From Pacificibacter marinus (GTDB lineage Bacteria > Pseudomonadota > Alphaproteobacteria > Rhodobacterales > Rhodobacteraceae): a stretch of DNA of 64,000 nucleotides. The stretch is taken from assembly GCF_018860665.1 (NCBI RefSeq), contig NZ_JAHKPK010000062.1, positions 1-64,000 of the forward strand. The letters run 5' to 3'. The position numbers and the translations under genes are program-made. A model generated the notes under the pieces. It did not search any database. It worked only from the letters and a program-made list of their open reading frames with translations, and was not told where the DNA came from. Shown here piece after piece: positions 40,366 through 61,399 of the stretch (position 1 is the stretch's first letter; every line of letters starts with the position of its first letter).

Positions 40366-40375
40366 CGGTATACCA
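40366..40375. promoter_or_regulatory. UxuR/ExuR-type operator half-extended (CGGTATACCA) before LysR gene
   Basis: It contains the perfect 8-bp core GGTATACC found at five other places in the acid-sugar island. Here the flanks are less symmetric (CGGTATACCA). It lies 14 bp before the LysR ATG and just in front of its GGAG ribosome site, so binding would block transcription or initiation. Confidence 0.6.
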
Positions 40376-40389
40376 AGTTGGAGCGGATA

Positions 40390-41382
40390 ATGGCGCGCAT
40401 GAACAGTCTGAACAGTTACGTATTTTTTGAAGCTGTCGCGAGACGTAAATCTGTCACGCGCGCTGCAGAAGAGCTATTGGTGTCCCCCTCTGCCGTCAGT
40501 CAGCAAATCAAACTTCTGGAACAGCAATTGGGCATCAAATTGTTTCGCAGAGAAGGGCGAAATTCAAGCCTGACGTTAGAAGGTGAACAATTGTTTCTTG
40601 CCAGTGCGTCAGCCATCCGCATGCTGAAAGACGCAGAGCGTCACTTGGGTAAGCAACATGAGGCGCGCAGGCTCAATTTGCGCGTGACCCCCAGTTTTGG
40701 GGAGCGGTGGCTTGGGGCGCGCTTGGCGGACTTTGTTCAAAATCATCCCGGTTGGGATTTGCGTATTGATGCAGCCCCCGATCCGACAGATTTTGATCGC
40801 GAGATTATGGATTTTGATATTCGCTATGGTCTGTCTGATTGGGGGGGATTCCATTGCAAACCGATTTTGCCTGATCAAGTGCTGCCGATGTGTAGCCCAA
40901 GTGTACGCGATGACTTGCAGACGCGTTTTGGCACTGATCCCGAAGCTCTATTGGATGGCGCGCAATTGATCGACAGTGCGCGGGCCATTTGCCAATGGGA
41001 TTTTTGGTTACACCGGAATGATCTGACGGTGAGCTCGAACATCAAGTCAATTTTGTTAGATCGCTCGTCGCTTGCGCTGCAAATGGCTGTGGATGGAGCT
41101 GGCGTTGTGCTTGAATCATTGGCGGTTGCTGCCAAAGAATTAGAGCGCGGTGATCTTGTGCCACTCACGCCATCTTTGCCTGTGATCGAATTTCCAGCCT
41201 ATTGGGTGGTCTGCCCTGCACGCCATATGAAAAGGCGTGCTGCGGTCACATTCGTGTCATGGATGGCGCAGCAAGCCGATGCGCATCGTGTTCTGACCGC
41301 GCGCCTTATGGATCAACACGGTTTGATATCTGATGTGATCGAGGCTCCGTCTGAAGTGTTTTGGGGATCAAAGCGTCCATAA
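40390..41382 (+). CDS. LysR-family transcriptional regulator (GcvA-like)
   Basis: The 330-residue regulator has an N-terminal winged helix (SYVFFEAVARRKSVTRAAEE...SPSAVSQQIKLLEQQLGIKLFRR, residues about 7-60) and a periplasmic-binding-protein-like effector domain. RVTPSFGERWLGARLADF and DIRYGLSDWGG match the GcvA subgroup. GGAG sits six bases before the ATG at 40390; an in-frame TTG at 40378 is less suitable. It carries an island-type operator at its start, so it may sit under control of the nearby GntR protein and in turn control part of the acid-sugar island or a glycine/amino-acid gene. Target unknown. Confidence 0.9.
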   Translation: MARMNSLNSYVFFEAVARRKSVTRAAEELLVSPSAVSQQIKLLEQQLGIKLFRREGRNSSLTLEGEQLFLASASAIRMLKDAERHLGKQHEARRLNLRVTPSFGERWLGARLADFVQNHPGWDLRIDAAPDPTDFDREIMDFDIRYGLSDWGGFHCKPILPDQVLPMCSPSVRDDLQTRFGTDPEALLDGAQLIDSARAICQWDFWLHRNDLTVSSNIKSILLDRSSLALQMAVDGAGVVLESLAVAAKELERGDLVPLTPSLPVIEFPAYWVVCPARHMKRRAAVTFVSWMAQQADAHRVLTARLMDQHGLISDVIEAPSEVFWGSKRP

Positions 41383-41810
41383 GGCCCAAGCGTTTTTAGT
41401 GTATCTACGATCCGTCAATTACATCAATTCCACGCTCAAGCTACGACGCAGGTCGCAATCGCGTCAGCGGTTAGTCAACCTTGATCATGCGCGTTGTGTC
41501 GGATGCGGTGATCTGCGCATTCAAATCATTTCCATTTGCTTGCCAATCGCTGAGGTCGACGATGCACTTCAGATTGTCGAGCTTTTAGGGCAAATCTGAC
41601 GGGGCGGAGGGCTATCGCAGGAACTTCCAAGCGCTGCGCGCAAGGCTGAGAATTGAGGGAGGAAGGCACGATGACAGGGCCATTGTGACTTCCTTTTGAC
41701 AGTGTCGCGGGGGAGGACGCGTTTTACTATCTAAGGGTAGAAAACGCATGATGTCTATCATGATGACTTAACTATAAGTTTAGCTCAGCTTAATAATGGC
41801 TGAGGTAGAG
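41383..41810. other. Gap between LysR and GntR genes with a short unexplained frame
   Basis: 428 bp without a recognised gene. A 66-codon plus-strand frame at 41399-41599 contains DHARCVGCGDLRIQI and ends EVDDALQIVELLGQI, which reads like protein, but it has no ribosome site and no family I can name. Near 41784-41804 CTCAGC / GCTGAG form a short stem that may end the GntR transcript. Confidence 0.3.
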
Positions 41811-42467
41811 CTATTTGCTTTCGGATTCTTTGGCGTATTTGTCTCTTACATTTTCGATTAGTGCATCAAGGTGAACGCTGATTTTTGCGCACATCAGTTC
41901 AGGGTCGCGGTCGCAAAAGGCTTGCATGATGTCGTGATGTTGGCGTTTGACGCGGTCGGAACTGTCCTTGCGGGACGCTGACAGGTAGCGTGCGCGCCAA
42001 AGGCGCCGCACAAAGGCACTATGCGTTTCCGCAAGAACTGCGTTCTTTGAGGCTGCTGCAATCGCCATGTGAAATTCCATATCAAGTTCGAAAAAATCGA
42101 TTCGATCGATTTTGCCCTGACAGCTGTCCATGTGGTCTTGCATGGCTTGAATGCGTGTGATGTCTTCATCGGTTGCGTTCTGGCAGGCCAAAGCGCCACT
42201 GCGCAACTCAAGGGCTGTAAGGACTTCAATTACATCAGAAATCTCTTCAAAAGACGGATCTGCAACAATGGGGCTGCGCGAGGGGCGCAGCAGGACAAGA
42301 CCTTCTTTGGCCAAAATGCGAATCGCCTCGCGCATTGGGGTCCGTGAGACATCCAAATCGGTGGCGTGATCGCGTTCCTTTATTTGCTGACCAGGGGCGA
42401 GGACACCTTTCAGGATGTCGCGGCGCAGCTTATCGGCGATTTGGTCTGGCAGTGCTTTATCGGTCAT
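41811..42467 (-). CDS. GntR-family regulator, FCD subfamily; probable master regulator of the acid-sugar island
   Basis: The 218-residue FadR-type regulator has a winged helix (residues about 5-70: IADKLRRDILKGVLAPG, ATDLDVSRTPMREAIRILAKEGLV) and an FCD domain (about 80-210) with metal/ligand positions DMEFHMAI and RQHHDIMQAF. FCD regulators such as UxuR and ExuR bind palindromes of the form TGGTATACCA, exactly the sequence repeated across this island, including two copies in its own divergent promoter. It therefore probably represses the TRAP, UxaA, XylD, DenD and LtnD operons and itself, with an aldonic or uronic acid as inducer. This link is inference from operator type and position. Confidence 0.9.
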   Translation of the reverse strand: MTDKALPDQIADKLRRDILKGVLAPGQQIKERDHATDLDVSRTPMREAIRILAKEGLVLLRPSRSPIVADPSFEEISDVIEVLTALELRSGALACQNATDEDITRIQAMQDHMDSCQGKIDRIDFFELDMEFHMAIAAASKNAVLAETHSAFVRRLWRARYLSASRKDSSDRVKRQHHDIMQAFCDRDPELMCAKISVHLDALIENVRDKYAKESESK

Positions 42468-42561
42468 CGTTTCTATAGCCTACGGTAATTATGTGTTCTG
42501 GCTAGCTCAATGTTGTTGCGCGATTAATGATCTTTGGTCCAGAGAAAAGTGAATTAATTGC

Positions 42562-42577
42562 ATTTGGTATACCAAAT
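42562..42577. promoter_or_regulatory. Operator ATTTGGTATACCAAAT (GntR/TRAP divergent promoter, site 1)
   Basis: A perfect 16-bp palindrome, identical to the one at 51679. It lies 95 bp upstream of the GntR start and about 120 bp upstream of dctP. The match to the UxuR/ExuR operator type is established knowledge; occupancy by the local GntR protein is inference. Confidence 0.8.
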
Positions 42578-42618
42578 TTCTGTTGATTGTCGAGAACGAC
42601 ATCGTTAGCTTCTTTCTG

Positions 42619-42632
42619 GATGGTATACCATC
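42619..42632. promoter_or_regulatory. Operator GATGGTATACCATC (GntR/TRAP divergent promoter, site 2)
   Basis: A perfect 14-bp palindrome centred 56 bp from site 1 and 74 bp before the dctP ATG. Two sites in one intergenic region suggest cooperative binding or separate control of the two divergent promoters. Confidence 0.8.
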
Positions 42633-42699: not shown

Positions 42700-43713
42700 A
42701 TGAAATTTAAGACACTCATGACAGCGACCGCTGCTGCAACTGTACTGGCTGGCGCTGCCGATGCGCAAACACACCTGCGTATCCAGACGCATTACGCGAC
42801 TGAGCACCCATCCGGCAAACTTGCAGCGCAATTCGTTGACGATGTTCAGACTATGTCTGGTGGTGAGATCACCATCGAGATGTTCTATTCATCATCTGTT
42901 GTGGCAACTGTTGAAACATTCGATGCGGCCGTTAACGGCATTCTTGATTGTGACATGACTGGTGGCGCCTACCAAACTGGTAAAGACCCAGCGTTCCAGT
43001 TTGTTGGTGACATCATGGGCGGCTACGACACACCTTGGCAGCAGTTGTCTTGGCTCTACTACGGTGGCGGCTATGACGCGGCACAAGCCCTCTACAATTC
43101 CGAAGGTATGCAGCTTGTTGGTTGGTGGCTTTACGGTCAAGAATCATTTGCCTCATCTCGTCCACTTGCAGGTCCTGAAGATCTGAAAGGTTGGAAGTTC
43201 CGTTCACCTCCAGGTCTTGAAACAGCGATTTTCACCGAAATGGGCGCAACTCCAATCGTGATGGATTTCACTGAAATCTTTACAGCGCTTGAAACTGGCA
43301 TCATCGATGGCGCAGATGCGTCTGGTCTTGCCAACAACGTTGGTCTTGGTTTGTACGACATCGTTAAGCACGCAAACTACCCTGGCTTCCACTCCATGCC
43401 ATCTGACCACCTTGCGTGTAACAAAGCTGTTTGGGACGGCATGAGCGAGCAAGAACGCCGCATCATGGACACGGCAATGCAAAAATTGTCACTGCACACA
43501 GCGCTTTCCAATGAAAAGCTAAACGCTGAAGCAGCTGCAAAGTTGAAAACCCAAGGCGTGACTTTGCACGATTGGTCTGATGAAGACAAAACTGCGTTCC
43601 GTACCACAGCTCAAAAAGCGTGGGACACATTTGCTGAAGGGTCACCAAAAGCTATTGCGTTGGTCGAAAGCCACCGTGGTTACCTTAAGCAATTGGGCCT
43701 GCTTTCCGAATAA
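42700..43713 (+). CDS. dctP: TRAP transporter solute-binding protein (DctP family)
   Basis: This 337-residue periplasmic receptor carries a signal peptide MKFKTLMTATAAATVLAG cleaved after ADA. DctP features are HLRIQTHYATEHPSGKLAAQ at the mature start, FDAAVNGILDCDMTGG, WRSPPG-type FRSPPGLETAIFTEMGATP near 165 (the carboxylate-binding Arg region), and TALETGIIDGADA. GGGAGG precedes the ATG at 42700; longer frames upstream run through the operators and are rejected. It captures an organic or sugar acid for the DctQM permease encoded next. Two operators lie upstream and a hairpin lies downstream. Confidence 0.94.
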   Translation: MKFKTLMTATAAATVLAGAADAQTHLRIQTHYATEHPSGKLAAQFVDDVQTMSGGEITIEMFYSSSVVATVETFDAAVNGILDCDMTGGAYQTGKDPAFQFVGDIMGGYDTPWQQLSWLYYGGGYDAAQALYNSEGMQLVGWWLYGQESFASSRPLAGPEDLKGWKFRSPPGLETAIFTEMGATPIVMDFTEIFTALETGIIDGADASGLANNVGLGLYDIVKHANYPGFHSMPSDHLACNKAVWDGMSEQERRIMDTAMQKLSLHTALSNEKLNAEAAAKLKTQGVTLHDWSDEDKTAFRTTAQKAWDTFAEGSPKAIALVESHRGYLKQLGLLSE

Positions 43714-43747
43714 GACAGGCATAATGATCTAAGATCATGGAATACTT

Positions 43748-43780
43748 GGGCGAGCTGAATAGAATTTGGTTCGCCCTCTC
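43748..43780 (+). terminator. Hairpin between dctP and dctQ
   Basis: GGGCGA and TCGCCC pair across a 17-base loop and are followed by TCTCTTTCTC. A leaky terminator here would give the excess of binding protein over permease that TRAP systems need. Confidence 0.5.
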
Positions 43781-43824
43781 TTTCTCAAAAAAATCAAAAA
43801 CTTAAATAGTGGGGTGCTAAGCAC

Positions 43825-44625
43825 ATGGAAAGCGAGAGCATATGGCTCGGCTCGATGCGCAAACCAATCCGTTTTGGAATGATTGGATTTGCCATAGCTG
43901 CCGCCATCACCTTTGCGTGGATGGCGATTCAGACTTTTGTCGCAGCAGAGCCCGTGACAATGTACGATCTACTCAGCCCGTCTGGTGTCCTTTTGGCGCA
44001 GATGATTTTGTTCACATTCTCGGGCACGGTTTTACTAACAGCCATTTACCTGTCCGACACGGTCGGTCCGATTGAATCAAAACCGCAAGGGTTCTTTGAT
44101 ATCTTGTCTCTGGTGTGTTCACGCATCTCGATGATTGGTGTTGTCTGTCTTGTTTTGGTGATGTTCTACGAAGTCGTCTCGCGTTACGGATTCAACACGC
44201 CAACGCTTTGGGCCAATGAAATGTCCTTATGGATGGCATCGTTTTTGTTCTTGCTTGCGGGGCTTTATGCCATGCAACAACGCAGTCACATCCGTATCTA
44301 CGTCATCTATGACATCCTGCCACGCTGGATGAAGAAGATGGCTGACGTTATTTCGTTGTTTTTGATCTGGGTCTTTACCTTCGCACTTGTTTGGGGCGGC
44401 TTTGATGAAGCGAAACTCAAATTTATGCGCATGGAAACATTTGGCACAGCATGGGATCCGCCCATTCCTGCGACGCTCAAACCTGCCATTTTGATCATCA
44501 TGTGTCTTGTTGCATTGCAAGCCTTGTCCAATCTCATTGCTGATTGGCACAAAGAGCCCGCCGCGCATGACGATATTGATGAGACTGAAATCGAAAATAT
44601 CCGCGCGACGTTGAGGGAAGATTGA
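43825..44625 (+). CDS. dctQ: TRAP transporter small permease (DctQ family)
   Basis: The 266-residue membrane protein is longer than a minimal DctQ (about 170 residues). It has two extra N-terminal helices (FGMIGFAIAAAITFAWMAIQ and LLAQMILFTFSGTVLLTAIY), then the four-helix DctQ core (about 95-235: VCLVLVMFYEVVSRYGFNTPTLWANE, MASFLFLLAGLYAMQQRSHIRI shown by their key residues E-V-x-x-R-Y and R-x-H-I-R). The motif around WANE..LW and the charged tail are typical. It ends 1 bp before dctM and forms the QM membrane complex with it. Confidence 0.9.
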   Translation: MESESIWLGSMRKPIRFGMIGFAIAAAITFAWMAIQTFVAAEPVTMYDLLSPSGVLLAQMILFTFSGTVLLTAIYLSDTVGPIESKPQGFFDILSLVCSRISMIGVVCLVLVMFYEVVSRYGFNTPTLWANEMSLWMASFLFLLAGLYAMQQRSHIRIYVIYDILPRWMKKMADVISLFLIWVFTFALVWGGFDEAKLKFMRMETFGTAWDPPIPATLKPAILIIMCLVALQALSNLIADWHKEPAAHDDIDETEIENIRATLRED

Positions 44626-44626
44626 T

Positions 44627-46255
44627 ATGGAATTCTTAGAAGCCTTCGCATGGATGAAAGTGACCGATATTGGCACGCTTTCGCTCTTGCTCTTGCTTGG
44701 CATGTTTGCGCTGTTGGCGCTGGGTATGCCGCTTGGCTTTGCCTCTGCCTTTTTGGCCGTTGCAACTTTGGTGATGAAATTCGGCCCTGAGCTGATGTTC
44801 AGTGACTTTGGTCGTGGCCCGTTCAACGTGTTGGGGCAGGCCGTCTATCGACAGATGACGAACTATGTTCTGATATCGGTGCCGCTGTTTATCTTTATGG
44901 CGTCCTTGTTGGAGCGGACCGGCATTGCGCGTGATATGTATTCATCGCTTAATGTTTGGCTGGCGCGTACACGCGGTGGTATTGCTGTTGTGACCTCTGT
45001 TATGGCGGTGATTATGGCGGCGATGTCTGGGATCATCGGCGGCGAAGTTGTGCTGCTTGGTCTGATCGCTTTGCCACAGATGCTGCGTCTTGGGTATAAT
45101 CAAAACTTGGCCATCGGGACGATCTGTGCCTCTGGGTCTTTGGGCACCATGATTCCGCCCTCTATCGTTTTGATTTTCTACGGCCTCATCACTGAGACCT
45201 CGATCAAAGCGCTGTTCACGGCGTCATTCCTGCCTGGTTTCATGTTGGCGAGTTTCTTTATTATATACATCATCGTCCGAGTGCGGTTGAATCCATCTTT
45301 GGCACCGCTGCCAGAGCCTGATCCCGAAGCGCCACACGGGTCTGAAAAATCGCTGATGTTCCTTGGCTTTATGGCTAAGTTTTCGATGTGGATCACAGGT
45401 GTCATCTTTGTCCGTGCGATGTTCTTTACGCTCACAGGTGAAAATACAGTGGCGGAAGGCGTTGATCCGATCTTCCTTGGGATGGTGAGTGATCTGCCCT
45501 TTATCGTGGTTGCATTTGCATTGTCTTATGTTGTGATGCGCTTCATCGTTGGCAAAGAACGGACTGATGAGGGTTGGCAGATGGGCAAAGGCTTGATCGC
45601 GCCAACTGTTGTGATCGGTGTTGTTCTTGGTTCCATCTATGGCGGCATTACGGGCATTACCGAAGCAGCGGGTATGGGCGTTATCGCGGTGTTCACTATC
45701 TCTGCGCTGCGTCGCGAGATGACCTTTGATATCGTCTACGACAGTTTGATGCGCACATTGAAATCGACAGGGACCATCATCTGGGTGACCATCGGTGCGG
45801 CTGCATTGGCTGCGGCGTACACTCTGGCCGGTGGCCCGACTTACGTTGCCAGCTTGATTTTGGGGGCTGACCTTCCAACCATGGGTGTCATTCTTGTGAT
45901 GATGTTCATCTTCCTCATCATGGGGATGTTTATGGACTGGGTTGGTATCGTGCTTTTGATCATGCCTGTGTTCTTGCCCATCGTTTTGAAACTGCCAATC
46001 GAAGAGATTGGTCTGTTTGGAACGTTGGACCCTAAGAACGTGGCGATTTGGTTCGGTGTGGTATTCTGTATGAATATGCAGGTCTCGTTCCTGTCACCAC
46101 CCTTTGGCCCTGCAGCGTTCTATTTGAAATCTGTCGCGCCATCGCACATCACTTTGGTCGATATTTTCAAAGGCTTCTTGCCGTTCATCGCGATCCAATT
46201 GTTCGCTTTGGCTGTCTTGATCATGTGGCCGTCACTGATTGAAGTGTTTTTGTGA
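44627..46255 (+). CDS. dctM: TRAP transporter large permease (DctM family)
   Basis: This 542-residue transport subunit has about 13-14 helices. DctM signatures are PLFIFMASLLERTGIARDMY near 85, GGIAVVTSVMAVIMAAMSG near 117, ASGSLGTMIPPSIVLIFYGLITETSI near 165 (key residues G-T-M-I-P-P-S) and the C-terminal MGMFMDWVGIVLLIMPVFLPI. It uses a sodium gradient to import the acid delivered by DctP. A central extension of about 100 residues (210-320) makes it longer than the 430-residue norm, as in several marine TRAP systems. A strong terminator follows 51 bp downstream. Confidence 0.93.
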   Translation: MEFLEAFAWMKVTDIGTLSLLLLLGMFALLALGMPLGFASAFLAVATLVMKFGPELMFSDFGRGPFNVLGQAVYRQMTNYVLISVPLFIFMASLLERTGIARDMYSSLNVWLARTRGGIAVVTSVMAVIMAAMSGIIGGEVVLLGLIALPQMLRLGYNQNLAIGTICASGSLGTMIPPSIVLIFYGLITETSIKALFTASFLPGFMLASFFIIYIIVRVRLNPSLAPLPEPDPEAPHGSEKSLMFLGFMAKFSMWITGVIFVRAMFFTLTGENTVAEGVDPIFLGMVSDLPFIVVAFALSYVVMRFIVGKERTDEGWQMGKGLIAPTVVIGVVLGSIYGGITGITEAAGMGVIAVFTISALRREMTFDIVYDSLMRTLKSTGTIIWVTIGAAALAAAYTLAGGPTYVASLILGADLPTMGVILVMMFIFLIMGMFMDWVGIVLLIMPVFLPIVLKLPIEEIGLFGTLDPKNVAIWFGVVFCMNMQVSFLSPPFGPAAFYLKSVAPSHITLVDIFKGFLPFIAIQLFALAVLIMWPSLIEVFL

Positions 46256-46382: not shown

Positions 46383-47888
46383 ATGACAACTGCCCCCATC
46401 AATACTGTTAGACTTTCAGACCGCGACAATGTCGTAACCGCTGTTCGTGCCCTTCAAATCGGCGAAGAAGGGGCTATCGAGCTGATCCCGCGTGGGCATA
46501 AAATCGCGACTGCGGACATCGCCAAAGGGGATGCCGTGCACAAATACGCGCAAATCATTGGTTATGCTGCGGTGGATATCGCCAAAGGCTCGCATGTTCA
46601 CGTTCACAATCTGGATTTCCGCAACGTGGACCAAGAGCACGCTTTTGGCACCAATATGTTGCCAGCGACGCCCGTGGCTAAACCTGATACATTCATGGGC
46701 TACAAGCGCGCGAACGGCCGTGTTGGAACCCGTAATTTCATCGCCGTTTTGACCTCAGTGAATTGTTCTGCCACCGCCGCGAAAATGATTGCCGCGCATT
46801 TCACCGACGAAAAATTGGCCGATTATCCCAATGTTGATGGCGTCGCAGCCTTTTGCCACGGCACAGGTTGTGCCATGGGTGGCGATGGCACGGGCTTTGA
46901 ATTTTTACAACGTACGCTTTGGGGTTATGCGAAAAACCCGAACGTTGGCGGTGTTTTGATGGCCGGCCTTGGCTGCGAAATGATGCAGATTGACTGGTTG
47001 ATCGAAGCCTATGGTTTGGTGCCTGGTCCGCGCTTTCAATCGATGAACATCCAAGACGTTGGCGGTCTGCGCAAAACTGTCGAGCTTGGCATCAAAAAAG
47101 TCGAAGCCATGTTGCCGATCGTCAATGAAGACACGCGCACTGAATGCCCTGCGTCCGATTTGATGGTCGCGCTGCAATGTGGTGGTTCTGACGCTTGGTC
47201 TGGTATCACGGCGAACCCGGCTGTGGGGCATGCTGTTGATTTGCTGGTGGCGCAAGGCGGCACGGGCGTGCTGGCTGAAACCCCTGAAATTTACGGTGCG
47301 GAACATCTTTTGACGGCGCGTGCCTCAAGCGATGATGTGGCCAACAAATTGCTTGGCCTGATCGATTGGTGGCAAGAATACACATCAATCAACAAAGGCA
47401 GCATGGACAACAACCCAAGCCCCGGCAACAAAAAGGGTGGCTTGACCACCATCTTGGAAAAATCGCTGGGCGCTGCGGCCAAGGGCGGCACAACGCCTTT
47501 GAATGGTGTCTATAAATACGCGGAAACCGTCACTGAGCGCGGCTTTGTCTTTATGGACAGCCCCGGTTATGACCCCGCCTCTGTAACTGGGCAAATCGCT
47601 TCTGGCTGTAACTTGGTGGTGTTCACAACGGGGCGTGGGTCTGCGTTTGGCTCCAAACCGTCGCCAACGCTCAAAGTCGCGTCAAACACCGAAATGTATA
47701 CGCGCATGTCTGAGGATATGGACGTCAATGCGGGTCGTATTTTGACCGAAGGCGCCTCTGTCGAAGAGGTTGGTCGCGAGATCTATGACGCTTGGTTGCG
47801 TATGGCATCAGGCGGGCAGTCTAAGTCAGAGGCGCAAGGGCTTGGCGATTACGAGTTCGTGCCTTGGAACGTCGGCGCTGTGATGTAA
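46383..47888 (+). CDS. uxaA: UxaA/GarD-family altronate/galactarate-type dehydratase
   Basis: The 501-residue protein contains the N-terminal SAF domain (residues 1-95: ELIPRGHKIATADIAKGD) and the catalytic GD_AH domain. Landmarks of the latter are FMGYKRANGRVGTRNFIAV near 102, FCHGTGCAMGG near 160, LQCGGSDAWSGITANPAVG near 263 and VFTTGRGSAFGSKPSPTLKV near 415 (key residues T-G-R-G-S and P-T-L-K). Such enzymes are iron-dependent and convert D-altronate, galactarate or related acids to 2-keto-3-deoxy acids. With TRAP uptake upstream it is probably the first catabolic step for an imported acid. The precise substrate is open; altronate is the default by family, hence the symbol. Confidence 0.88.
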   Translation: MTTAPINTVRLSDRDNVVTAVRALQIGEEGAIELIPRGHKIATADIAKGDAVHKYAQIIGYAAVDIAKGSHVHVHNLDFRNVDQEHAFGTNMLPATPVAKPDTFMGYKRANGRVGTRNFIAVLTSVNCSATAAKMIAAHFTDEKLADYPNVDGVAAFCHGTGCAMGGDGTGFEFLQRTLWGYAKNPNVGGVLMAGLGCEMMQIDWLIEAYGLVPGPRFQSMNIQDVGGLRKTVELGIKKVEAMLPIVNEDTRTECPASDLMVALQCGGSDAWSGITANPAVGHAVDLLVAQGGTGVLAETPEIYGAEHLLTARASSDDVANKLLGLIDWWQEYTSINKGSMDNNPSPGNKKGGLTTILEKSLGAAAKGGTTPLNGVYKYAETVTERGFVFMDSPGYDPASVTGQIASGCNLVVFTTGRGSAFGSKPSPTLKVASNTEMYTRMSEDMDVNAGRILTEGASVEEVGREIYDAWLRMASGGQSKSEAQGLGDYEFVPWNVGAVM

Positions 47889-49810: not shown

Positions 49811-49822
49811 TTCAAGGTGCTC

Positions 49823-51678: not shown

Positions 51679-51694
51679 ATTTGGTATACCAAAT
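51679..51694. promoter_or_regulatory. Operator ATTTGGTATACCAAAT (xylD / secreted protein divergent promoter)
   Basis: A perfect 16-bp palindrome, identical to that at 42562. It is centred 82 bp before the xylD ATG and 60 bp before the divergent gene's ATG, well placed to control both. Confidence 0.8.
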
Positions 51695-52225: not shown

Positions 52226-52259
52226 TTAAACGCCGTAGATTGAAATAAAGGATCTATTT

Positions 52260-53943: not shown

Positions 53944-53992
53944 CGTTTCCTCCTCCCAAAGGATCAGTGAAATGGATCGTCGTAATATTCGC

Positions 53993-54754
53993 TTAAAGCG
54001 AGGCTGTGATGCCGCCATCGACGAATAGTGTATGTCCGTTTACGAATTTCGATGCATTGGACGACAAGAACACAGCCGCGCCCACAAGCTCTTCGATCTG
54101 GCCCCAACGTCCAGCCGGTGTGCGTTTTTCCAACCATGAGCTGAACTCAGGATCCGCCACAAGCGCCGCATTGAGTGGCGTGTCGAAATACCCCGGTGCG
54201 ATGGCGTTGCAGTTCAATCCAAGCGGAGCCCAGTCTGTGGCCATACCTTTGGTCAGGTTGGCAACCGCGCCTTTTGTGGCGGTGTAGGGGGCAATGCCGG
54301 GGCGCGCGAGCGCGGTTTGAACAGACGCGATGTTGATGATTTTACCGGTGCCGCGTTTGATCATGTGCACGGCGACGGCTTGGCCAACATTGAACACAGA
54401 TGTCACGTTGGTCTTCATCAGCTGTTCAAATTTATCTGCGGGAAATTCATGCAATGGTGTGCGGTGCTGCATGCCTGCATTGTTGAACAAGATATCGATA
54501 GGGCCGTGGTCTGCTTCAAAGCCGTCAACTGCAGCAGCAACGCCAGCATGGTCTGTGACGTCAAACGGCAGAGTGAAAACAGTGTGGCCCTCGGCGCGCA
54601 ATTCTGCTGCTGCGGCGTCAAGTTTGTCTGCGCCACGCGCGTTGAGGATCACTTGCGCCCCTGCTTCACATAGCCCGCGTGCAAGCGCGAAGCCGATGCC
54701 CATTGACGAGCCAGTGATAAGGGCGGTTTTTCCGGTGAGATCGAACAGTTTCAT
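53993..54754 (-). CDS. SDR-family dehydrogenase, gluconate 5-dehydrogenase-like
   Basis: The 253-residue classical SDR has the cofactor loop TGSSMGIGFALA (residues 14-25), NARG after strand 2, NNAGMQHR near 91, Ser in NIASVQTALARPG near 142 and YTATKGA near 157. The combination MxxFDLTGKTALITG start, MQHRTPLHEF and NAIAPGYFDTPLNAAL is typical of gluconate 5-dehydrogenase/IdnO-type enzymes, which interconvert aldonates and ketoaldonates. An operator lies 67-84 bp upstream. It probably feeds or drains the keto-acid handled by the GarR-like partner. Confidence 0.87.
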   Translation of the reverse strand: MKLFDLTGKTALITGSSMGIGFALARGLCEAGAQVILNARGADKLDAAAAELRAEGHTVFTLPFDVTDHAGVAAAVDGFEADHGPIDILFNNAGMQHRTPLHEFPADKFEQLMKTNVTSVFNVGQAVAVHMIKRGTGKIINIASVQTALARPGIAPYTATKGAVANLTKGMATDWAPLGLNCNAIAPGYFDTPLNAALVADPEFSSWLEKRTPAGRWGQIEELVGAAVFLSSNASKFVNGHTLFVDGGITASL

Positions 54755-54820: not shown

Positions 54821-54838
54821 AAAATGGTATACCATTTT
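54821..54838. promoter_or_regulatory. Operator AAAATGGTATACCATTTT (SDR / LysE divergent promoter)
   Basis: A perfect 18-bp palindrome, the most symmetric copy of the island operator. It is centred 75 bp before the SDR start and 66-98 bp before the plus-strand leader ORF and LysE gene. Confidence 0.85.
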
Positions 54839-54895: not shown

Positions 54896-54934
54896 ATGGA
54901 AAACAATTTTACGTCGGTTGTTACAAAATGCTGA
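54896..54934 (+). CDS. 12-codon leader ORF overlapping the LysE start
   Basis: ATG at 54896 has a strong AGAGAGGG ribosome site and encodes MENNFTSVVTKC before TGA at 54932. Its stop overlaps the LysE ATG at 54928 in a different frame, while that ATG has no ribosome site of its own. Translation of the transporter therefore likely depends on ribosomes finishing this leader. The alternative is an ancient or sequencing frameshift that cut the original LysE N-terminus (MENN..) from its body. Confidence 0.55.
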   Translation: MENNFTSVVTKC

Positions 54935-55527
54935 TTTTTCTAAGCGCAGTCTTTTTCCTTATTGTCACACCTGGACCTGGCGTTTTGTCGGCCGCAGGTG
55001 TGGGCGCTGCTTTCGGGTTCCGTGTTGGTCTGCGTTATGTCGTGGGCTTGTTCATTGGCTCAAACCTTGTGGCATTGGCTGCCATTTCAGGCATCGCCGC
55101 TGTGCTGTTGTCCCAACCCGCCGTGCGCACAGTGTTATTGGTGTGCTCAGTGGTTTATCTGACGTATCTCGCAGCCAAAATTGCTTTTGCAGGATCGAAA
55201 ATAGCCTTTATCGAGGCCCAAAACGCGCCCGGCATAAGGCAAGGAATTCTATTGCAAGCTATCAACCCCAAGGCCTATAGCGTCAATATCGCGTTCTTTT
55301 CGGGCTTTGCATTTATTCCCGACAACTTGATTTTGGAGGCGGGCGTCAAGCTTGCCTTAATCGCGATGCTGTGGATACCGATTCATCTGGGCTGGCTCTA
55401 TGCAGGGGTTGTTTTGCACCGGTTGGATTTGGCTGAAAAGACCCAGCGCAGAATCAATTACGCCATGGCGGCTTCCATGTTGTTGGTCGTTGCACTGGCC
55501 ATACTTTCAATGCGCGGGATAGGGTGA
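54928..55527 (+). CDS. LysE/RhtB-family transporter
   Basis: The 199-residue membrane protein has the family signature VTPGPGVLSAAGVGAAFGFRVGL (key residues P-G-P) near the N-terminus, a central motif QAINPKAYSVNIAFFSGF near 112 and six hydrophobic segments. LysE proteins export amino acids or small acids. Its ATG lacks a Shine-Dalgarno site and is embedded in a leader ORF stop. The protein begins a few residues later than usual for the family. It leads an operon with an FAD oxidase, a XylX-like enzyme and DenD, so exporting a toxic acid intermediate is a possible role. Confidence 0.85.
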   Translation: MLIFLSAVFFLIVTPGPGVLSAAGVGAAFGFRVGLRYVVGLFIGSNLVALAAISGIAAVLLSQPAVRTVLLVCSVVYLTYLAAKIAFAGSKIAFIEAQNAPGIRQGILLQAINPKAYSVNIAFFSGFAFIPDNLILEAGVKLALIAMLWIPIHLGWLYAGVVLHRLDLAEKTQRRINYAMAASMLLVVALAILSMRGIG

Positions 55528-55564
55528 TGCATCCTTTGACCTGCGCCATGACAAGGACTTTCAT

Positions 55565-56944
55565 ATGACAATTCAATCTGCTCTCAAGGCGCTTGAACGA
55601 CTTTTGGGAGATCGTTTGGTGACGTCTGACGCCGTGTGCGCACAGCATGGCGAGAATGAAACATACTTTCCCCATACGCCGCCTGATGCCGTTGTTTTCC
55701 CTGAGAACACCGAAGATGTGTCGCAGATCGTCAAGCTGTGTAACACCCACGCCTGCCCGATTGTGGCTTACGGCGCAGGGACGTGTTTGGAGGGTCAACA
55801 CTTGCCAGTCCAAGGTGGTGTGACGCTTGACTTCTCTAAAATGAACAAGGTTCTAGAGGTGCATGACGAGGACCTCACCGTCACGGTTCAACCCGGATTG
55901 ACGCGTGAAGAGTTGAACACGCATTTGCGCGATACGGGGTTGTTCTTTTCTGTTGATCCCGGTGCGAATGCATCGATTGGAGGCATGGCCGCGACGCGCG
56001 CCTCTGGTACGACGGCTGTCAGATACGGCACCATGAGTGACAATGTTTTGGCGCTCGAGGCCGTGATGGCCGATGGGTCAATCATTCGTACCGGCACAGG
56101 CGCACGCAAAACGTCGTCTGGATATGATCTCACCCATCTGTTGATTGGGTCCGAGGGCACGCTCGGCATCATCACAGAACTGACCGTCAAACTGCACGGT
56201 GTCCCAGAGGCGATGTCCGCTGCGACCTGTTACTTTGATAGCATCGAAGACGCTGTGAATACTGTGATTTTGACCATTCAATCGGGCATTCCGATGGCGC
56301 GTATCGAGTTGTTGGATGACGTTATGGTGCGTGGTTTTAACATGTATTCTAAAAGCGATCTGCCTGAGAAACCGCATCTGTTTGTTGAATTCCATGGCTC
56401 ACCTTCATCTGTTGCCGAACAGGCGGAAGGCTTTGGCGATATCGCAGCCGAGTTTTCAGCGCAGGCCTTTTCATGGACGTCTAAAGCTGAAGAACGCACA
56501 GCCCTTTGGGCGATGCGCCACAAAGCCCATTACGCATCACGGGCGCTAAGCCCGGGCAAGCATTTGATGTCCACCGACGTTTGCGTGCCGATCTCACGAC
56601 TGGCCGAAGCCGTGATGGAAGCCAAAGACAGCAGCCTGCGTTTGGGGTTGACCTCGACACTTGTCGGCCATGTTGGAGACGGAAATTTCCACTGTGGCAT
56701 TGGTGTCGATCCTGAAGATGCAGAGGAACTCGCGCGGGTCAAAGCCTTCAGCGACAATCTGTGTGAGCTTGCGCTTCGCCTTGGTGGCACTGTGACTGGC
56801 GAACACGGAATTGGCCTTGGCAAAGCGAAATATATGGAGGCCGAGCATGGGCCTGCTGTTGCATTTATGCGTGCCGTAAAAACTGCGTTGGACCCCAATA
56901 ACATCCTGAACCCTGGCAAGATTTTTCCTGCCGTAGATCTGTGA
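55565..56944 (+). CDS. FAD-linked oxidase, GlcD/D-lactate dehydrogenase family
   Basis: The 459-residue protein has an FAD-binding PCMH domain (residues about 35-215: VVAYGAGTCLEG-like PIVAYGAGTCLEG, SVDPGANASIGGMAATRASG, GYDLTHLLIGSEGTLGIITE) and a C-terminal FAD-oxidase domain. The latter includes GHVGDGNFHCGI near 378 (metal/substrate His region) and GTVTGEHGIGLGK near 420, where the conserved EHGIG motif is intact. Enzymes of this type oxidise D-2-hydroxy acids such as D-lactate, glycolate or aldonates and pass electrons to the respiratory chain. No iron-sulfur partner gene is adjacent. In this operon a D-aldonate or D-2-hydroxyacid intermediate is the likely substrate. Confidence 0.9.
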   Translation: MTIQSALKALERLLGDRLVTSDAVCAQHGENETYFPHTPPDAVVFPENTEDVSQIVKLCNTHACPIVAYGAGTCLEGQHLPVQGGVTLDFSKMNKVLEVHDEDLTVTVQPGLTREELNTHLRDTGLFFSVDPGANASIGGMAATRASGTTAVRYGTMSDNVLALEAVMADGSIIRTGTGARKTSSGYDLTHLLIGSEGTLGIITELTVKLHGVPEAMSAATCYFDSIEDAVNTVILTIQSGIPMARIELLDDVMVRGFNMYSKSDLPEKPHLFVEFHGSPSSVAEQAEGFGDIAAEFSAQAFSWTSKAEERTALWAMRHKAHYASRALSPGKHLMSTDVCVPISRLAEAVMEAKDSSLRLGLTSTLVGHVGDGNFHCGIGVDPEDAEELARVKAFSDNLCELALRLGGTVTGEHGIGLGKAKYMEAEHGPAVAFMRAVKTALDPNNILNPGKIFPAVDL

Positions 56945-56954
56945 AAGTAAATCT

Positions 56955-58106
56955 ATGATACCTTTTTCAAACCCAACGCCTGACGCCACATTCGTAGGCC
57001 GCGTTTGGCGCCCAAATATCGGTCCTTGTGTTGTTGTCTTGCGCGGCGATGCGGTGATCGACATCACGTCAAAAGATGCGCCCACCATGCGCGATCTTTT
57101 GGAGCGTGACGATCTGCTTGCTTTCGTGCGTGCGGCCAAAGGCGAAGTTATTGCGACATTGAGTGATGTTGCTAAAGGCTCTGTAGAAGGTGCGGGCGAC
57201 ACGGCGTTGCATTTCTTGGCACCGACTGATTTGCAGGCGATCAAAGCCTCTGGCGTCACCTTTGCCGAAAGCATGGTCGAGCGCGTGATCGAAGAGCAGG
57301 CCGCAGGCAATGCAGATCGCGCCGAAGAAATTCGCACGCGCGTCAAAGCCCGTATCGGGGATAGCCTGTCGGGTATCGTGCCGGGGTCTGACAAGGCGAT
57401 GGAGATCAAAACGATCTTGCAAGCCGAAGGCCTGTGGTCACAGTATTTGGAAGTGGGCATTGGCCCTGACGCAGAGGTTTTCACCAAATCGCAGCCTATG
57501 GGAGCCGTAGGCTGGGGCGCTTCTGTTGGTTTGCATCCGATGTCGAGTTGGAACAATCCCGAACCCGAAATCGTTTTAGCTGTCACATCGACGGGTAAAG
57601 TTGTGGGCGCGACCTTGGGCAATGACGTGAACCTGCGCGATGTTGAAGGGCGCTCTGCTTTGCTTTTGGGTAAGGCCAAAGACAACAATGCTTCCTGTTC
57701 CATTGGGCCTTTTGTGCGTTTGTTCGATGATGACTTTGACATGGAAACTGTACAAAACGCCGAGGTGGATTTGAAAGTCACTGGCGACGACGGCTTTGTG
57801 ATGGATGGGCGGTCTTCAATGAACAAAATCTCGCGCACGCCGCAAAGCATTGTCGACCAAACCATAGGCCGTCATCATCAATACCCCGACGGCTTTTTCC
57901 TATTTCTTGGCACGCTGTTTGCGCCGGTCAAAGATCGCGACACCAAGGGGCAGGGCTTTACGCATAAAATGGGCGATGTGGTGACCATTTCGGAACCTAC
58001 GCTCGGGGCGCTCACCAATACGGTGCGCCTATCAACGGAATGTCCGGCGTGGACGTTCGGCACATCAGCCTTGATGCGCAACCTCGCCGCACGCGAACTA
58101 ATTTAG
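56955..58106 (+). CDS. xylX: FAH-family 2-keto-3-deoxy-pentonate dehydratase-like protein (XylX-like)
   Basis: This 383-residue fumarylacetoacetate-hydrolase-fold protein has an N-terminal domain (1-130) opening FVGRVWRPNIGPCVVVLRGD. Its catalytic core carries metal ligands in WNNPEPEIVLAV (the two Glu near 200) and LGNDVNLRDVEGRSALLLGKAKDNNA (Asp near 222; key residues N-D-V-N-L-R-D). The length and layout match 2-keto-3-deoxy-D-xylonate dehydratase XylX of the Weimberg pathway, which makes alpha-ketoglutarate semialdehyde. A XylD-like dehydratase sits 5 kb away under the same operator, supporting the role. The alternative is another acylpyruvase-type FAH enzyme. Confidence 0.8.
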   Translation: MIPFSNPTPDATFVGRVWRPNIGPCVVVLRGDAVIDITSKDAPTMRDLLERDDLLAFVRAAKGEVIATLSDVAKGSVEGAGDTALHFLAPTDLQAIKASGVTFAESMVERVIEEQAAGNADRAEEIRTRVKARIGDSLSGIVPGSDKAMEIKTILQAEGLWSQYLEVGIGPDAEVFTKSQPMGAVGWGASVGLHPMSSWNNPEPEIVLAVTSTGKVVGATLGNDVNLRDVEGRSALLLGKAKDNNASCSIGPFVRLFDDDFDMETVQNAEVDLKVTGDDGFVMDGRSSMNKISRTPQSIVDQTIGRHHQYPDGFFLFLGTLFAPVKDRDTKGQGFTHKMGDVVTISEPTLGALTNTVRLSTECPAWTFGTSALMRNLAARELI

Positions 58107-58125
58107 TAAAACTGGGAGACAGGTT

Positions 58126-59091
58126 ATGAAAATTCTTATTGTTGGAGGCGGCGGTTTCGTCGGTCAAAAACTGGCATATTCACTCGCCGCGCGCGGTACT
58201 ATGCGTGGGCAAGCGATCGACACGCTTGTGTTGGCGGATGTTGTCGATCCCGCGACTGTTGAGGCGCCTTTTGCGGTTGAAACAGCCACATGCGACATCT
58301 CGGATGCGGCGCAAGTGAACCAACTGATTTCCGAAGATGTTGATGTCATCTATCTGTTGGCCGCCATTGTGTCGGGCCAAGCTGAAGAAGATTTAGATCT
58401 GGGGATGCGCATCAATATGATGGGCACCTTGAACGTACTTGAACGTTGCCGTGCTTTGCCGCACGCGCCTGTGGTTGTGTTCACATCCTCGGTCGCTTGT
58501 TTCGGTGGCGATCTGCCGGATGTGATTACGGATCAGACTTTGCTCAACCCGCAGACATCTTATGGTGCGCAAAAGGCTATCGGCGAATTGCTGGTCAATG
58601 ACTATTCCCGTCGTGGTTTGATCGATGGGCGCGGCTTCCGCTTGCCAACGATTTCAGTACGCCCCGGTAAACCCAATCGCGCGGCTTCTGGATTCATGTC
58701 GTCGATTTTCCGCGAACCTTTGAACGGCATTGCGTCCAACTGCCCTGTTAGCCGTGACTTCCCGCACTTCTATCTGTCGCCACGTAAATGCATCGAAAAC
58801 CTGATCAAAGGGGCTGAAATCCCTGCCGAAGACTTTGGTCCAAACCGCTGCATGACCATGCCGGGGCAGAATTTGACCATCGGTGAAATGATCGATGCGA
58901 TGACAGCCGTAGCAGGGCCTGAGCCTGAAAAACTGATCACCTTTGAGGCCGACGATGCGGTCTGGGCCATCGCCAAAGGTTGGCAGTTTAAGTTCGAAAC
59001 CAAGAAAGCGCTCGCGCTTGGCTTGACCGCTGACGAAAGCTTTGAAGACAACATTCGTTACTACATCGAAGACGATCAACCCAACGCGTGA
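58126..59091 (+). CDS. denD: D-erythronate dehydrogenase (DenD)-like SDR
   Basis: The 321-residue extended SDR opens with the Rossmann motif IVGGGGFVGQKLA (residues 4-16). It has LADVV after strand 2, the active-site Ser region FTSSVACFGG near 123, and the YxxxK motif YGAQKAIGE near 145. TISVRPGKPNRAASGF near 178 and HFYLSPRKCIENL near 217 are characteristic of the DenD group. DenD oxidises D-erythronate at C2 in the tetronate pathway described with LtnD, OtnK, OtnC and OtnI. The ltnD-otnK-otnC genes at 61.5-64 kb support this. Uronate dehydrogenase-like activity is a less likely alternative. Confidence 0.85.
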   Translation: MKILIVGGGGFVGQKLAYSLAARGTMRGQAIDTLVLADVVDPATVEAPFAVETATCDISDAAQVNQLISEDVDVIYLLAAIVSGQAEEDLDLGMRINMMGTLNVLERCRALPHAPVVVFTSSVACFGGDLPDVITDQTLLNPQTSYGAQKAIGELLVNDYSRRGLIDGRGFRLPTISVRPGKPNRAASGFMSSIFREPLNGIASNCPVSRDFPHFYLSPRKCIENLIKGAEIPAEDFGPNRCMTMPGQNLTIGEMIDAMTAVAGPEPEKLITFEADDAVWAIAKGWQFKFETKKALALGLTADESFEDNIRYYIEDDQPNA

Positions 59092-59117
59092 TCGACTTTG
59101 TTAAAGGCATAGACATG

Positions 59118-59149
59118 AAAAAGGGCGCCCAAGTGAGGCGCCCTTTTTT
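59118..59149. terminator. Bidirectional terminator after denD
   Basis: AAAAAGGGCGCC and GGCGCCCTTTTTT form a 12-bp stem around a 7-base loop, flanked by A and T tracts; good for both convergent operons. Confidence 0.92.
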
Positions 59150-59165
59150 GATGTGTTTGATTGGC

Positions 59166-60113
59166 CTAATTGACAGGTGTTAACAGATCTGTACCAGCAA
59201 GATGTGCCGACACATTCGCCAGCTGCAATTCTGCCATCGCACGGCGTGTTTCAACTGTTCCTGATCCTTGGTGTGGCTGCAAAACGGCTGTTTCTAGCGC
59301 ATAGAACCGCTCGTCGATTGTTGGTTCATCGTTGAACACATCAAGGCCGGCACCGGCGATTGAGCCATTGGCCAAGGCTTCGATCAGAGCCTCTTCGTCA
59401 ATAGTGCTGCCACGTGAAATGTTGACAATCACACCGCGTGGGCCAAGGGCCGCGATGGCTTCGCGTGAGACATATTTCTCTGTCGCTTTGCCACCAACAA
59501 GGGCGATGACAAGATAATCGACAGCAGAAGCCAAAGACACCACATCCGCATGATATGTCCAACCCGGCGTCTGTTTTTCAGAACGCGCATGATAGTGAAT
59601 ATCCATTTTGAACGCCGCCAAACGGTCCGCAATATCACGGCCAATCCGGCCAAGCCCGACGATCCCAACAGAGGACCCCGACATTTTGCGATTCAGCGGC
59701 AAGGTTTCGCCCGCAGCCCATTTTCCAGAACGCACCAATGCGTCGCCTGCCACCATGTTGCGGGATTGAGCGATCATCATGCCGACGGCGATGTCCGCCA
59801 CATCATCGTTCAAGACATCCGGCGTGTTCGTCACTTTGACGCCGCGCGCAGAGGCATCTTCAACATTGATCGCATCATAGCCAACGCCGTAGTTTGCGAT
59901 GATGCCAAGGTTTGGCAGCAAATCCATGACAGCCCCATTCAAGGGATTGTGGCCTTTAAATGCGATCGCTTTGACTGTGGCCCGTGATGCCTCAGACAGG
60001 GTCGCAACATCGTCAGGAGACCCTGCAAAACAGGTCGCATGGGCTGCTTGTAGGCGGGCACGTTCCTCGTCTGAAAAAGCTGCGCCAAGGATAAGAAGTG
60101 GTGTGTCGGTCAT
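59166..60113 (-). CDS. D-isomer-specific 2-hydroxyacid dehydrogenase
   Basis: The 315-residue NAD(P)-dependent enzyme has the catalytic domain split around a Rossmann fold. NYGVGYDAINVEDA near 73, the dinucleotide motif GIVGLGRIGRDIA near 150, the Arg in VIVNISRGSTIDEEAL near 231, Glu in FNDEPTID and the catalytic His in LQPHQGSGTVETR near 281 are all present. Relatives reduce glyoxylate and hydroxypyruvate. In this operon it could reduce 2-oxo acids from tetronate or serine-type metabolism. It follows the aminotransferase by 21 bp and ends at the bidirectional terminator. Confidence 0.9.
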   Translation of the reverse strand: MTDTPLLILGAAFSDEERARLQAAHATCFAGSPDDVATLSEASRATVKAIAFKGHNPLNGAVMDLLPNLGIIANYGVGYDAINVEDASARGVKVTNTPDVLNDDVADIAVGMMIAQSRNMVAGDALVRSGKWAAGETLPLNRKMSGSSVGIVGLGRIGRDIADRLAAFKMDIHYHARSEKQTPGWTYHADVVSLASAVDYLVIALVGGKATEKYVSREAIAALGPRGVIVNISRGSTIDEEALIEALANGSIAGAGLDVFNDEPTIDERFYALETAVLQPHQGSGTVETRRAMAELQLANVSAHLAGTDLLTPVN

Positions 60114-60134
60114 TTGGAATGCCCTTTCAAAAAT

Positions 60135-61307
60135 TTATAGTAGGCCACGAATGCGGCGGATGGCTTCGATGATGTTCTCGGTTGAGTTCGCATAAGAAAA
60201 ACGCAAATATCCTTCGCCCCAAGCGCCGAATGATGTCCCCGCAACGGTCGCGACACCTGCATCGTTCAGGAATTTATTTTGTGCTTCGACAGCAGTCATA
60301 CCCGTGCCCTCAATGTTGGCAAAGGCATAGAATGCGCCAGCGGCATCAGGGCAGCGTACACCAGGCAGGGCGTTGAGGTCACGCACGATGACTTCACGCC
60401 GCGCATCGAATTGAGCGACCATGCTGTGCACAGCAGTTTGCGGTCCATTCAATGCTTCCATCGCCGCAAATTGTGTCGCGGCATTGACACAAGAATGATC
60501 GTTGATGCACAGGCGCGTGACGTGATCGACCATAGAGTCCGGCCAAACGGCATAGCCAATGCGCCAGCCTGTCATGGCGTAAGTTTTCGACCATCCATCC
60601 AGCATGATCAGTCGATCTCTGATTTCGGGATATTGCAAAAGACTGACATGTTCGCGCCCGCCATAAAGCATGTTGGAATAGATCTCATCGGACATCAACG
60701 CCACATGGGGATGCTCTAGCAGCCCCGCGACCAGCTTATCGATTTCCACCTTTGGAGCCACGCCGCCTGTTGGGTTGGCGGGGCTGTTGATGATGATCAA
60801 TCGTGTTTTGTCGGTGATTTGGGCAAGCACGGCTTCGGCGGAAAAGGCAAACCCGTTTTCTTCTTTCAGCGCCATAGGCACAGGGGTCGCCCCTGAATAG
60901 TTGATCACGCTTTCATAAATTGGAAAGCCGGGGTTGGGGTAAATGATTTCCACGCCAGGTTGGCCGAACATCGTGATGGCAAAAAACATTGTCGGCTTTC
61001 CTCCGGGGACAACGACAATATTTTTCGGATCGACCTCGACATTATGACGACGGTGCAAATCTGCGACCACAGCTTCGCGCAGTTGCGGCAGGCCGTTTGC
61101 AGGCGTGTAGCCGTGATGCCCGTCACGTAAGGCCTTGATACCCGCTTCGACGATATTTTCAGGTGTTTGAAAATCGGGTTGGCCGATTCCAAGATTGATG
61201 ATGTCGCGCCCTTGCGCCGCCAAGTTTTGAGCGCGTGCTAAGACTTCGAAAGCGGATTCTGTTCCAAGCCGTGACAAGCTGTCGGCAAATTGTAGTTGAG
61301 CCTTCAT
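60135..61307 (-). CDS. Class I/II PLP-dependent aminotransferase (aspartate aminotransferase family)
   Basis: The 390-residue fold-type I enzyme has INLGIGQPDFQTP near 35, the PLP ring-stacking region VPGGKPTMFFA near 95, NSPANPTGG near 172 (Asn and Pro conserved), DEIYSNMLYGG near 200 (Asp binding the PLP nitrogen), the Schiff-base Lys in LDGWSKTYAMTGWRIGY near 232, and the Arg in YLRFSYANS near 372. GGGAGG precedes the ATG at 61307; the upstream in-frame extension crosses promoter sequence and is rejected. It may transaminate a 2-oxo acid of the pathway (for example hydroxypyruvate-like), working with the downstream hydroxyacid dehydrogenase. Confidence 0.9.
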   Translation of the reverse strand: MKAQLQFADSLSRLGTESAFEVLARAQNLAAQGRDIINLGIGQPDFQTPENIVEAGIKALRDGHHGYTPANGLPQLREAVVADLHRRHNVEVDPKNIVVVPGGKPTMFFAITMFGQPGVEIIYPNPGFPIYESVINYSGATPVPMALKEENGFAFSAEAVLAQITDKTRLIIINSPANPTGGVAPKVEIDKLVAGLLEHPHVALMSDEIYSNMLYGGREHVSLLQYPEIRDRLIMLDGWSKTYAMTGWRIGYAVWPDSMVDHVTRLCINDHSCVNAATQFAAMEALNGPQTAVHSMVAQFDARREVIVRDLNALPGVRCPDAAGAFYAFANIEGTGMTAVEAQNKFLNDAGVATVAGTSFGAWGEGYLRFSYANSTENIIEAIRRIRGLL

Positions 61308-61385
61308 ACCGCGATCCTCCCTTTGCGTCAGCCGAAGCATCGGACGCGAATTGTGCATATTGTGCGTTGCCATATGAATATGCAT

Positions 61386-61399
61386 TTTGGTATACCAAA
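61386..61399. promoter_or_regulatory. Operator TTTGGTATACCAAA (aminotransferase / ltnD divergent promoter)
   Basis: A perfect 14-bp palindrome centred 85 bp before the aminotransferase ATG and 58-70 bp before ltnD. It is the sixth copy of the island operator core. Confidence 0.85.

Follow-up and report, generated by a model that had tools for sequence, protein, structure and literature searches.

A 64,000-nucleotide stretch of the Pacificibacter marinus genome (contig NZ_JAHKPK010000062.1, positions 1 to 64,000, called the window here) carries an island of genes for sugar-acid transport and breakdown in which the palindromic word GGTATACC recurs at promoters. These sites are very probably operators of a GntR protein of the FCD type encoded within the island (41811 to 42467, minus strand, 218 amino acids), which, judging from sequence comparisons, would be the autoregulated repressor of one sugar-acid regulon. 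The regulon is new, but its FCD/GntR class is familiar. An earlier sequence-only reading of the window had proposed that a single GntR protein reads the sites, and three lines of comparison support this: sites upstream of the gene in relatives, site counts across whole genomes, and the promoters of ilvD orthologues.

The window contains six exact copies of GGTATACC, starting at 40367, 42566, 42622, 51683, 54826, and 61389, where 0.10 were expected and none of 100 shuffled sequences reached six. The sequence-only reading had listed six sites with a shared core and had seen no copy in the first 40 kb; the exact word is present at each of these sites and nowhere else in the window. Direct reading of the flanks also bore out five perfect palindromes of 14 to 18 bp. 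Operators A (42562 to 42577) and C (51679 to 51694) share the 16-bp form ATTTGGTATACCAAAT, operators B (42619 to 42632, GATGGTATACCATC) and E (61386 to 61399, TTTGGTATACCAAA) span 14 bp, and operator D (54821 to 54838, AAAATGGTATACCATTTT) spans 18 bp. The remaining site, operator F (40367 to 40374, variant ACGGTATACCAA), precedes the lysR start by about 20 bp. It is a palindrome over 8 bp only, and position 40366, where it had been placed, lies one base 5′ of the word. The core word claimed there is present, but the operator is imperfect, one change away from the TGGTATACCA of the closest relatives, which occurs at this site in both loci labelled Pacificibacter marinus. As had been claimed, the sites occupy all four divergent intergenic regions of the island (two of them between gntR and dctP) and the position directly before lysR. 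Operator centers lie 19.5 to 102.5 bp from the start codons chosen in this analysis; the copy at 42622 falls within dctP if its frame is read from the farthest start (TTG at 42583), yet 5′ of the likely ATG at 42700.

In the whole genome (3,886,717 bases in 65 contigs), GGTATACC occurs 20 times, compared to 55 times for the reversed control CCATATGG. About 21 kb of island thus holds 6 of the 20 genomic copies, and under a uniform model the probability that five or more of the remaining 19 fall in this interval is about 5e-8. For the stricter word WTGGTATACCAW, five of nine genomic copies are within the island, and its reversed control is absent; allowing up to two mismatches to WTGGTATACCAW returned eight matches in the window (4.1 expected), namely, the six sites plus 14575 and 39672, both outside the island. 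A comparison of intergenic and coding copies, proposed by the sequence-only reading, separated the 14 copies outside the window into 10 that lack the T and A flanks and each overlap an open reading frame (ORF) of at least 80 amino acids, and 4 that have both flanks (TGGTATACCA) and lie near a gene start. These flanks are the rule in relatives, as 187 copies from the 80 named loci described below (77 of which hold one) had the T in 96% and the A in 98% of cases. A chance cluster or composition artifact, for which nothing speaks beyond the shortness of an 8-mer, is exceedingly improbable: the window expectation, the genome count, the uniform-model probability, and the absence of the strict reversed control from the genome all led to its rejection, and conservation at orthologous promoters contradicts it.

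To follow the word across genomes, relatives of the GntR protein were located in 80 named loci, the nearest from a Pacificibacter marinus strain (97%), and each locus was scored from 300 bp ahead of gntR to 30 bp into the gene. In 66 of these 80 relatives GGTATACC was found upstream of gntR; the runner-up of all 256 palindromic 8-mers, CGCTAGCG, was found in 18, with the related loci being dependent samples. A second sample took 198 genomes from the family, each from a different genus, including the genome of the window (G000). A GntR match of at least 47% identity defined 26 positive genomes, 164 had none at an E value of 1e-40, and 8 with weak matches of 40 to 43% (G014, G035, G089, G094, G102, G125, G134, and G157, with 5 strict sites in total) were left out of the comparison. 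Strict sites numbered 110 in the 26 positive genomes (mean, 4.2) versus 45 in the 164 negative genomes (mean, 0.27), and at least two strict sites were present in 24 of 26 versus 4 of 164 (Fisher P = 4e-24). The reversed control word occurred 6 times in the positive genomes and 48 times in the negative genomes (23 of them in one genome); because this control gives a similar count, the 45 strict sites in negative genomes are about what background would produce. The named loci and the genome set overlap (nine operator pairs are the same DNA counted twice) and so are not separate samples.

The ilvD promoter allowed the regulator and the enzyme to be told apart. Among the best 30 of the ilvD matches found in 99 genomes (orthologues of at least 79% identity, scanned over 400 bp upstream), GGTATACC was present at the promoter in 21 of 22 GntR-positive genomes versus 0 of 8 GntR-negative genomes (P of about 2e-6). 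Since the word stands before ilvD only where the regulator is present, the operator follows the regulator and not the enzyme.

Several observations weigh against this picture. In 14 of the 80 named loci, the word is missing from the 300 bp upstream of gntR; eight of these, all Paracoccus, together with L037 and L077, carry it at ilvD, and L074 carries it elsewhere in the locus, while L060, L090, and L096 lack it anywhere in the fetched stretch. Within the positive genomes, G112 has no strict site (though two copies of GGTATACC at ilvD), the ilvD site is absent from G137, a single strict site occurs in G088, and none of the sites of G023 is near gntR. One or two strict sites occur in 41 of the 164 negative genomes, so a single site is no proof of regulation. 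The genome of the window also encodes 29 FCD matches, which makes a paralogue sharing the operator conceivable.

Such a paralogue, for instance, the FCD/GntR protein near an unlinked aldehyde dehydrogenase on contig 22, might read the sites by itself or together with the island protein. Operators of the FadR subfamily resemble one another (PMC4494728), and in one relative (G086) an operator precedes another FCD gene whose product has 27% identity. This alternative is nonetheless improbable, because the number of sites tracks the gntR of the window across 190 genomes, a conserved double site lies at its own promoter, and the 10 kb around the contig 22 regulator holds a single GGTATACC, before the aldehyde dehydrogenase. 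Still less probable is control of the island by the LysR-type protein, identified by Pfam (40390 to 41382, plus strand), with the palindromes as its sites. Its gene adjoins the island and starts beside one of the sites, but only 4 of 24 relatives showed a homologue within the regions fetched (regions that do not always extend far past gntR), on which ground LysR was rejected as the operator reader; the operator form is also that of the FadR subfamily. The LysR-type gene is proposed to be a target of the operators, and the GntR protein to be their reader.

The domain architecture of the GntR protein is that of the FadR/FCD subfamily, with an N-terminal GntR winged helix (PF00392, 55.9 bits) and a C-terminal FCD domain (PF07729, 92 bits), each exceeding its cutoff. 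In an alignment of 31 of the 80 relatives and the window protein, Asp129, His133, and His177 are kept in all 32 sequences and His199 in 31. An Asp-His-His-His metal site is typical of FCD domains, in which these residues commonly bind a metal together with a carboxylate.

The region between gntR and dctP suggests how the operators may work. The two genes are divergent and adjacent in all 64 named loci that hold both. Of 77 distinct, de-duplicated pairs of neighboring sites no more than 120 bp apart, 62 are spaced by 54 to 58 bp; a second, small peak at 22 to 25 bp consists of nine distinct pairs in which two sites stand at one promoter (L187, L197, L169, L202, and others). Alignment of 47 named-locus pairs with a spacing of 55, 56, or 57 bp showed a conserved block between the operators, made up of TTGATTGTCG and, 17 nt after TTGATT, TAGCGT, which is less well kept at the 57-bp spacing. 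CGCTAGCG, the palindrome ranked second upstream of gntR, is apparently part of the −10-like block TTCGCTAGCGT. In the window, the promoter-like element of the TRAP operon (42583 to 42611, plus strand) comprises TTGATT (42583 to 42588), a 17-nt spacer, and TAGCTT (42606 to 42611). Operator A, upstream of the gntR start, stops a few bases short of the −35-like element. The −10-like element is followed, after about 7 bases, by operator B, which lies where transcription is expected to start. Two points count against calling this a promoter: the −10 is noncanonical, and a simple sigma-70 promoter scan found none at gntR-dctP, so the assignment rests on conservation. Anchored alignments at single sites revealed no clear common promoter.

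An operator bracket of this kind around the transporter promoter suggests repression by blocking of RNA polymerase, since operator B would cover the expected start and operator A would sit just upstream of the −35-like element. It is possible, though rather unlikely, that the protein acts instead as an activator or dual regulator at some promoters. An activator could use the position of operator A, but blocking agrees better with two other placements, that of operator B over the expected start and that of the lysR site, which is about 20 bp away from the start codon. Repression is also the mode of most characterized FCD regulators that control sugar-acid genes.

For the repressor that we favor, the observed sites, with their conservation and dependence on gntR, lead us to infer that one dimer would bind each TGGTATACCA palindrome, and the observed spacing and promoter-like element that two dimers would flank the transporter promoter between gntR and dctP. 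Occupancy of operator A could also limit expression of gntR itself. A carboxylate inducer, be it a sugar acid brought in by the transporter or a 2-keto-3-deoxy intermediate, might be held by the FCD metal site and free the protein from DNA. Release would then switch on TRAP uptake, dehydration by the UxaA- and IlvD-type enzymes, and the follow-on dehydrogenases, aldolases, and hydrolases, and would at the same time turn on the D-erythronate/L-threonate route and the unlinked target genes.

ExuR of Escherichia coli is a FadR-subfamily regulator of hexuronate genes, and UxuR, like the window protein, combines a GntR winged helix-turn-helix with an FCD domain. The sequence-only reading had assigned the word to the UxuR/ExuR operator type. 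FadR-subfamily operators are described as TKGT/ACMA boxes with a GT-AC gap of 3 nt in ExuR and most others and of 2 nt in a small set that includes UxuR and HypR (available text of PMC4494728). TGGTATACCA contains the TKGT/ACMA boxes, and its GT-AT-AC center has a 2-nt gap; the UxuR half of the assignment therefore stood, and the ExuR half, with its N3 gap, did not. Orthology to either protein was rejected, as scores reached 32 of the 442 bits required for UxuR and 41.5 of the 396 bits required for ExuR. The E. coli UxuR operator is likewise a GT-N2-AC palindrome (PMC4494728) in sugar-acid metabolism; unlike the UxuR system, the gene set of the window has a TRAP transporter, an IlvD-type dehydratase, and tetronate genes. 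The part of PMC9881133 available on UxuR/ExuR gives no operator sequence.

Rhodobacter sphaeroides is a relative of the source bacterium, from the same order. There, the GntR-family protein RSP_0489, likewise a regulator of sugar-acid genes, had uxuA and uxaC-kduID-uxuB as its main targets by chromatin immunoprecipitation sequencing, with a TRAP transporter among the direct targets (PMC4344238). Compared by published targets and motifs, it differs in that the five target motifs printed in the available text do not contain GGTATACC (PMC4344238). GntR groups named in the available text of a comparison of proteobacterial regulons include BioR, FadR, GlcC, HutC, HypR, LldR, NagQ, and PdhR (PMC5343134); judged by the pathways stated there, none of these eight has the gene set of the window. 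Among the open-license literature matches listed, no title or abstract opening describes this regulon, although the motif may sit in databases or figure logos beyond the reach of text searches, and searches for TGGTATACCA and GGTATACC listed no title on bacterial sugar-acid regulation.

Every transcription unit from gntR onward, as read from gene direction and spacing, is headed by an operator. Downstream of operators A and B lies the TRAP transporter dctP, dctQ, and dctM (42700 to 46255, plus strand; PF03480, PF04290, PF06808), followed by a UxaA/GarD-family acid-sugar dehydratase (46383 to 47888, plus strand) with GD_AH_C, GD_AH_second, and SAF domains but under the galactarate dehydratase cutoff. 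An EamA/DMT transporter gene (48115 to 49014, plus strand; PF00892) begins 226 bp after the UxaA-type gene without an operator of its own and would thus have to share the TRAP operon, possibly as its end.

Operator C, supported by the word and by the ilvD promoter comparison, separates an operon on the minus strand for a short-chain dehydrogenase/reductase (SDR) and an IlvD/EDD-family sugar-acid dehydratase (49076 to 51604; Pfam, NCBIfam) from the divergent genes for a small protein without a Pfam match and an RraA-like protein (51746 to 52958, plus strand; Pfam). The top-scoring solved structures for the IlvD-type protein were 5oyn, an IlvD/Edd-family dehydratase, and 7m3k, a galactonate dehydratase. 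Weak homologues of the small protein (51746 to 52225, 159 amino acids; 32 to 45% identity) have an upstream operator in 13 of 24 relatives.

On one side of operator D are an NAD-binding beta-hydroxyacid dehydrogenase and a gluconate-5-dehydrogenase-like SDR (53020 to 54754, minus strand), and on the other are a LysE-type exporter, a GlcD-like oxidase, an FAH-family protein, and D-erythronate dehydrogenase, DenD (54928 to 59091, plus strand), all assigned by Pfam and NCBIfam. The FAH protein had another FAH-family protein, 9kkt, as its top-scoring solved structure, and the GlcD-like oxidase is under its NCBIfam cutoff (371.5 of 567.9 bits). Operator E lies between an operon for a D-2-hydroxyacid dehydrogenase and a class I/II aminotransferase (59166 to 61310, minus strand; Pfam), with the aminotransferase gene nearest, and ltnD, which begins a unit for L-threonate dehydrogenase and 3-oxo-tetronate kinase (61451 to 63636, plus strand). 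This last operon continues past the window with genes for 3-oxo-tetronate 4-phosphate decarboxylase (OtnC) and a 2-oxo-tetronate-isomerase-like protein. NCBIfam scores exceeded their cutoffs for DenD (402.5/325 bits), LtnD (391.7/350), OtnK (525.4/350), and OtnC (295.3/250); the OtnI-like protein was under its cutoff (270.9/325), though OtnI was the best model.

The presence of DenD, LtnD, OtnK, and OtnC over cutoff in this genome matches the D-erythronate/L-threonate pathway. Here, these genes lie inside a GntR/FCD regulon, whereas the Brucella erythronate regulator VdtR is of the DeoR type (PMC10580937). The UxaA/GarD, IlvD/EDD, FAH, and SDR-type dehydrogenase families also recur in the nonphosphorylative pentonate Routes II and III of Herbaspirillum huttiense (PMC6336799); Route III yields glycolate, and the island holds a GlcD-like oxidase. 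The transporters mentioned in the available text on those routes are of the ABC type (PMC6336799), in contrast to TRAP uptake here.

Regulon content in relatives was examined in 24 other GntR-positive genomes, fetched around strict sites and hence biased towards sites, with G000 and the strict-site-free G112 left out and genes assigned by tblastn with the proteins of the window. A site precedes gntR in 21 of the 24, dctP in 20, ilvD in 18, and the SDR gene of 53993 to 54754 in 17; fewer have one before the aminotransferase (7), D-2-hydroxyacid dehydrogenase (5), glcD (3), ltnD (2), or denD (1). The gntR tally omits G086, where the match is a different FCD protein (27% identity), and the copy of gntR that adjoins the sites in G168 is its second one (44 to 45%).

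The sequence-only reading had put the extent of the regulon at 21 kb; the island sites were confirmed, but the size was not, since the otn genes past the end of the window also belong to the regulon, which probably reaches unlinked loci as well. Four unlinked TGGTATACCA sites precede a rarD-like gene (L010), an SDR and FAH gene pair (L011), pntA (L012), and an aldehyde dehydrogenase gene (L016). The last is probably real, because this aldehyde dehydrogenase gene carries a site in relatives too (2 of the 24 genomes, leaving out a match of 24% identity, and three named loci). The gene (L016:5098-6612) may encode an alpha-ketoglutarate-semialdehyde dehydrogenase; Pfam identifies an aldehyde dehydrogenase, and no NCBIfam model reached its cutoff. 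The SDR of L011 is the best match (60%, next best 54%) to the SDR in the island of one relative. For the FAH protein beside gntR in relatives, four paralogues match at 58 to 59%, and the FAH gene of L011 (contig 11) is a candidate orthologue. Counting against the wider regulon, the rarD-like and pntA sites had no support in the 24 relatives; the rarD-like site also falls within the longest, TTG-started reading of that gene, 5′ of its preferred later start.

Marine bacteria use sugar acids derived from plant and algal polymers as carbon sources. The GntR group described here could be a widespread master regulator of sugar-acid use in Rhodobacteraceae, an extrapolation for which the case stands about evenly balanced. 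It would have a single inducer, perhaps a shared 2-keto-3-deoxy intermediate, coinducing uptake together with C4, C5, and C6 routes, with unlinked genes recruited genome by genome through operator gain and the 54- to 58-bp two-operator bracket as the switch. Sequence alone does not reveal what TRAP transporters and dehydratases of this kind act on. The proposed regulon ties about 20 genes to one inducer, among them several with no known role here (those for the RraA-like protein, the small protein, the LysE-type exporter, and the aminotransferase); because the genes would share the inducer, identifying it would point to the substrates of all. The bracketed promoter provides a ready reporter, and the conservation of the regulon across genera makes it easy to test.

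Other occurrences of the word or its relatives fall outside these gene sets. A lone AGGTATACCG lies 36 bp before a gene with an FCD-domain product and also overlaps an ORF (L005:4994; G000 contig 2:16993), possibly as the related operator of a paralogue, and a GGTATACC within an ORF overlapping an FCD-domain match (L019:4927; G000 contig 65:39926) is probably due to chance. In single relatives, strict sites precede unexpected genes for a 4Fe-4S protein, a pyridine-nucleotide-disulfide oxidoreductase, a major facilitator superfamily protein, a shikimate-dehydrogenase-like protein, and the N half of a transketolase (loci L200:3618-5612, L211:3656-4984, L175, and L216:3568-4428). In G168, a site stands before a DUF1537-type kinase gene with SBD_N and NBD_C domains (L193:2170-3414), on a contig other than that of the island. 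After the island, L013:5024-12073 carries genes resembling those for glycogen branching enzyme, ADP-glucose pyrophosphorylase, glycogen synthase, and debranching enzyme, named from their translations only.

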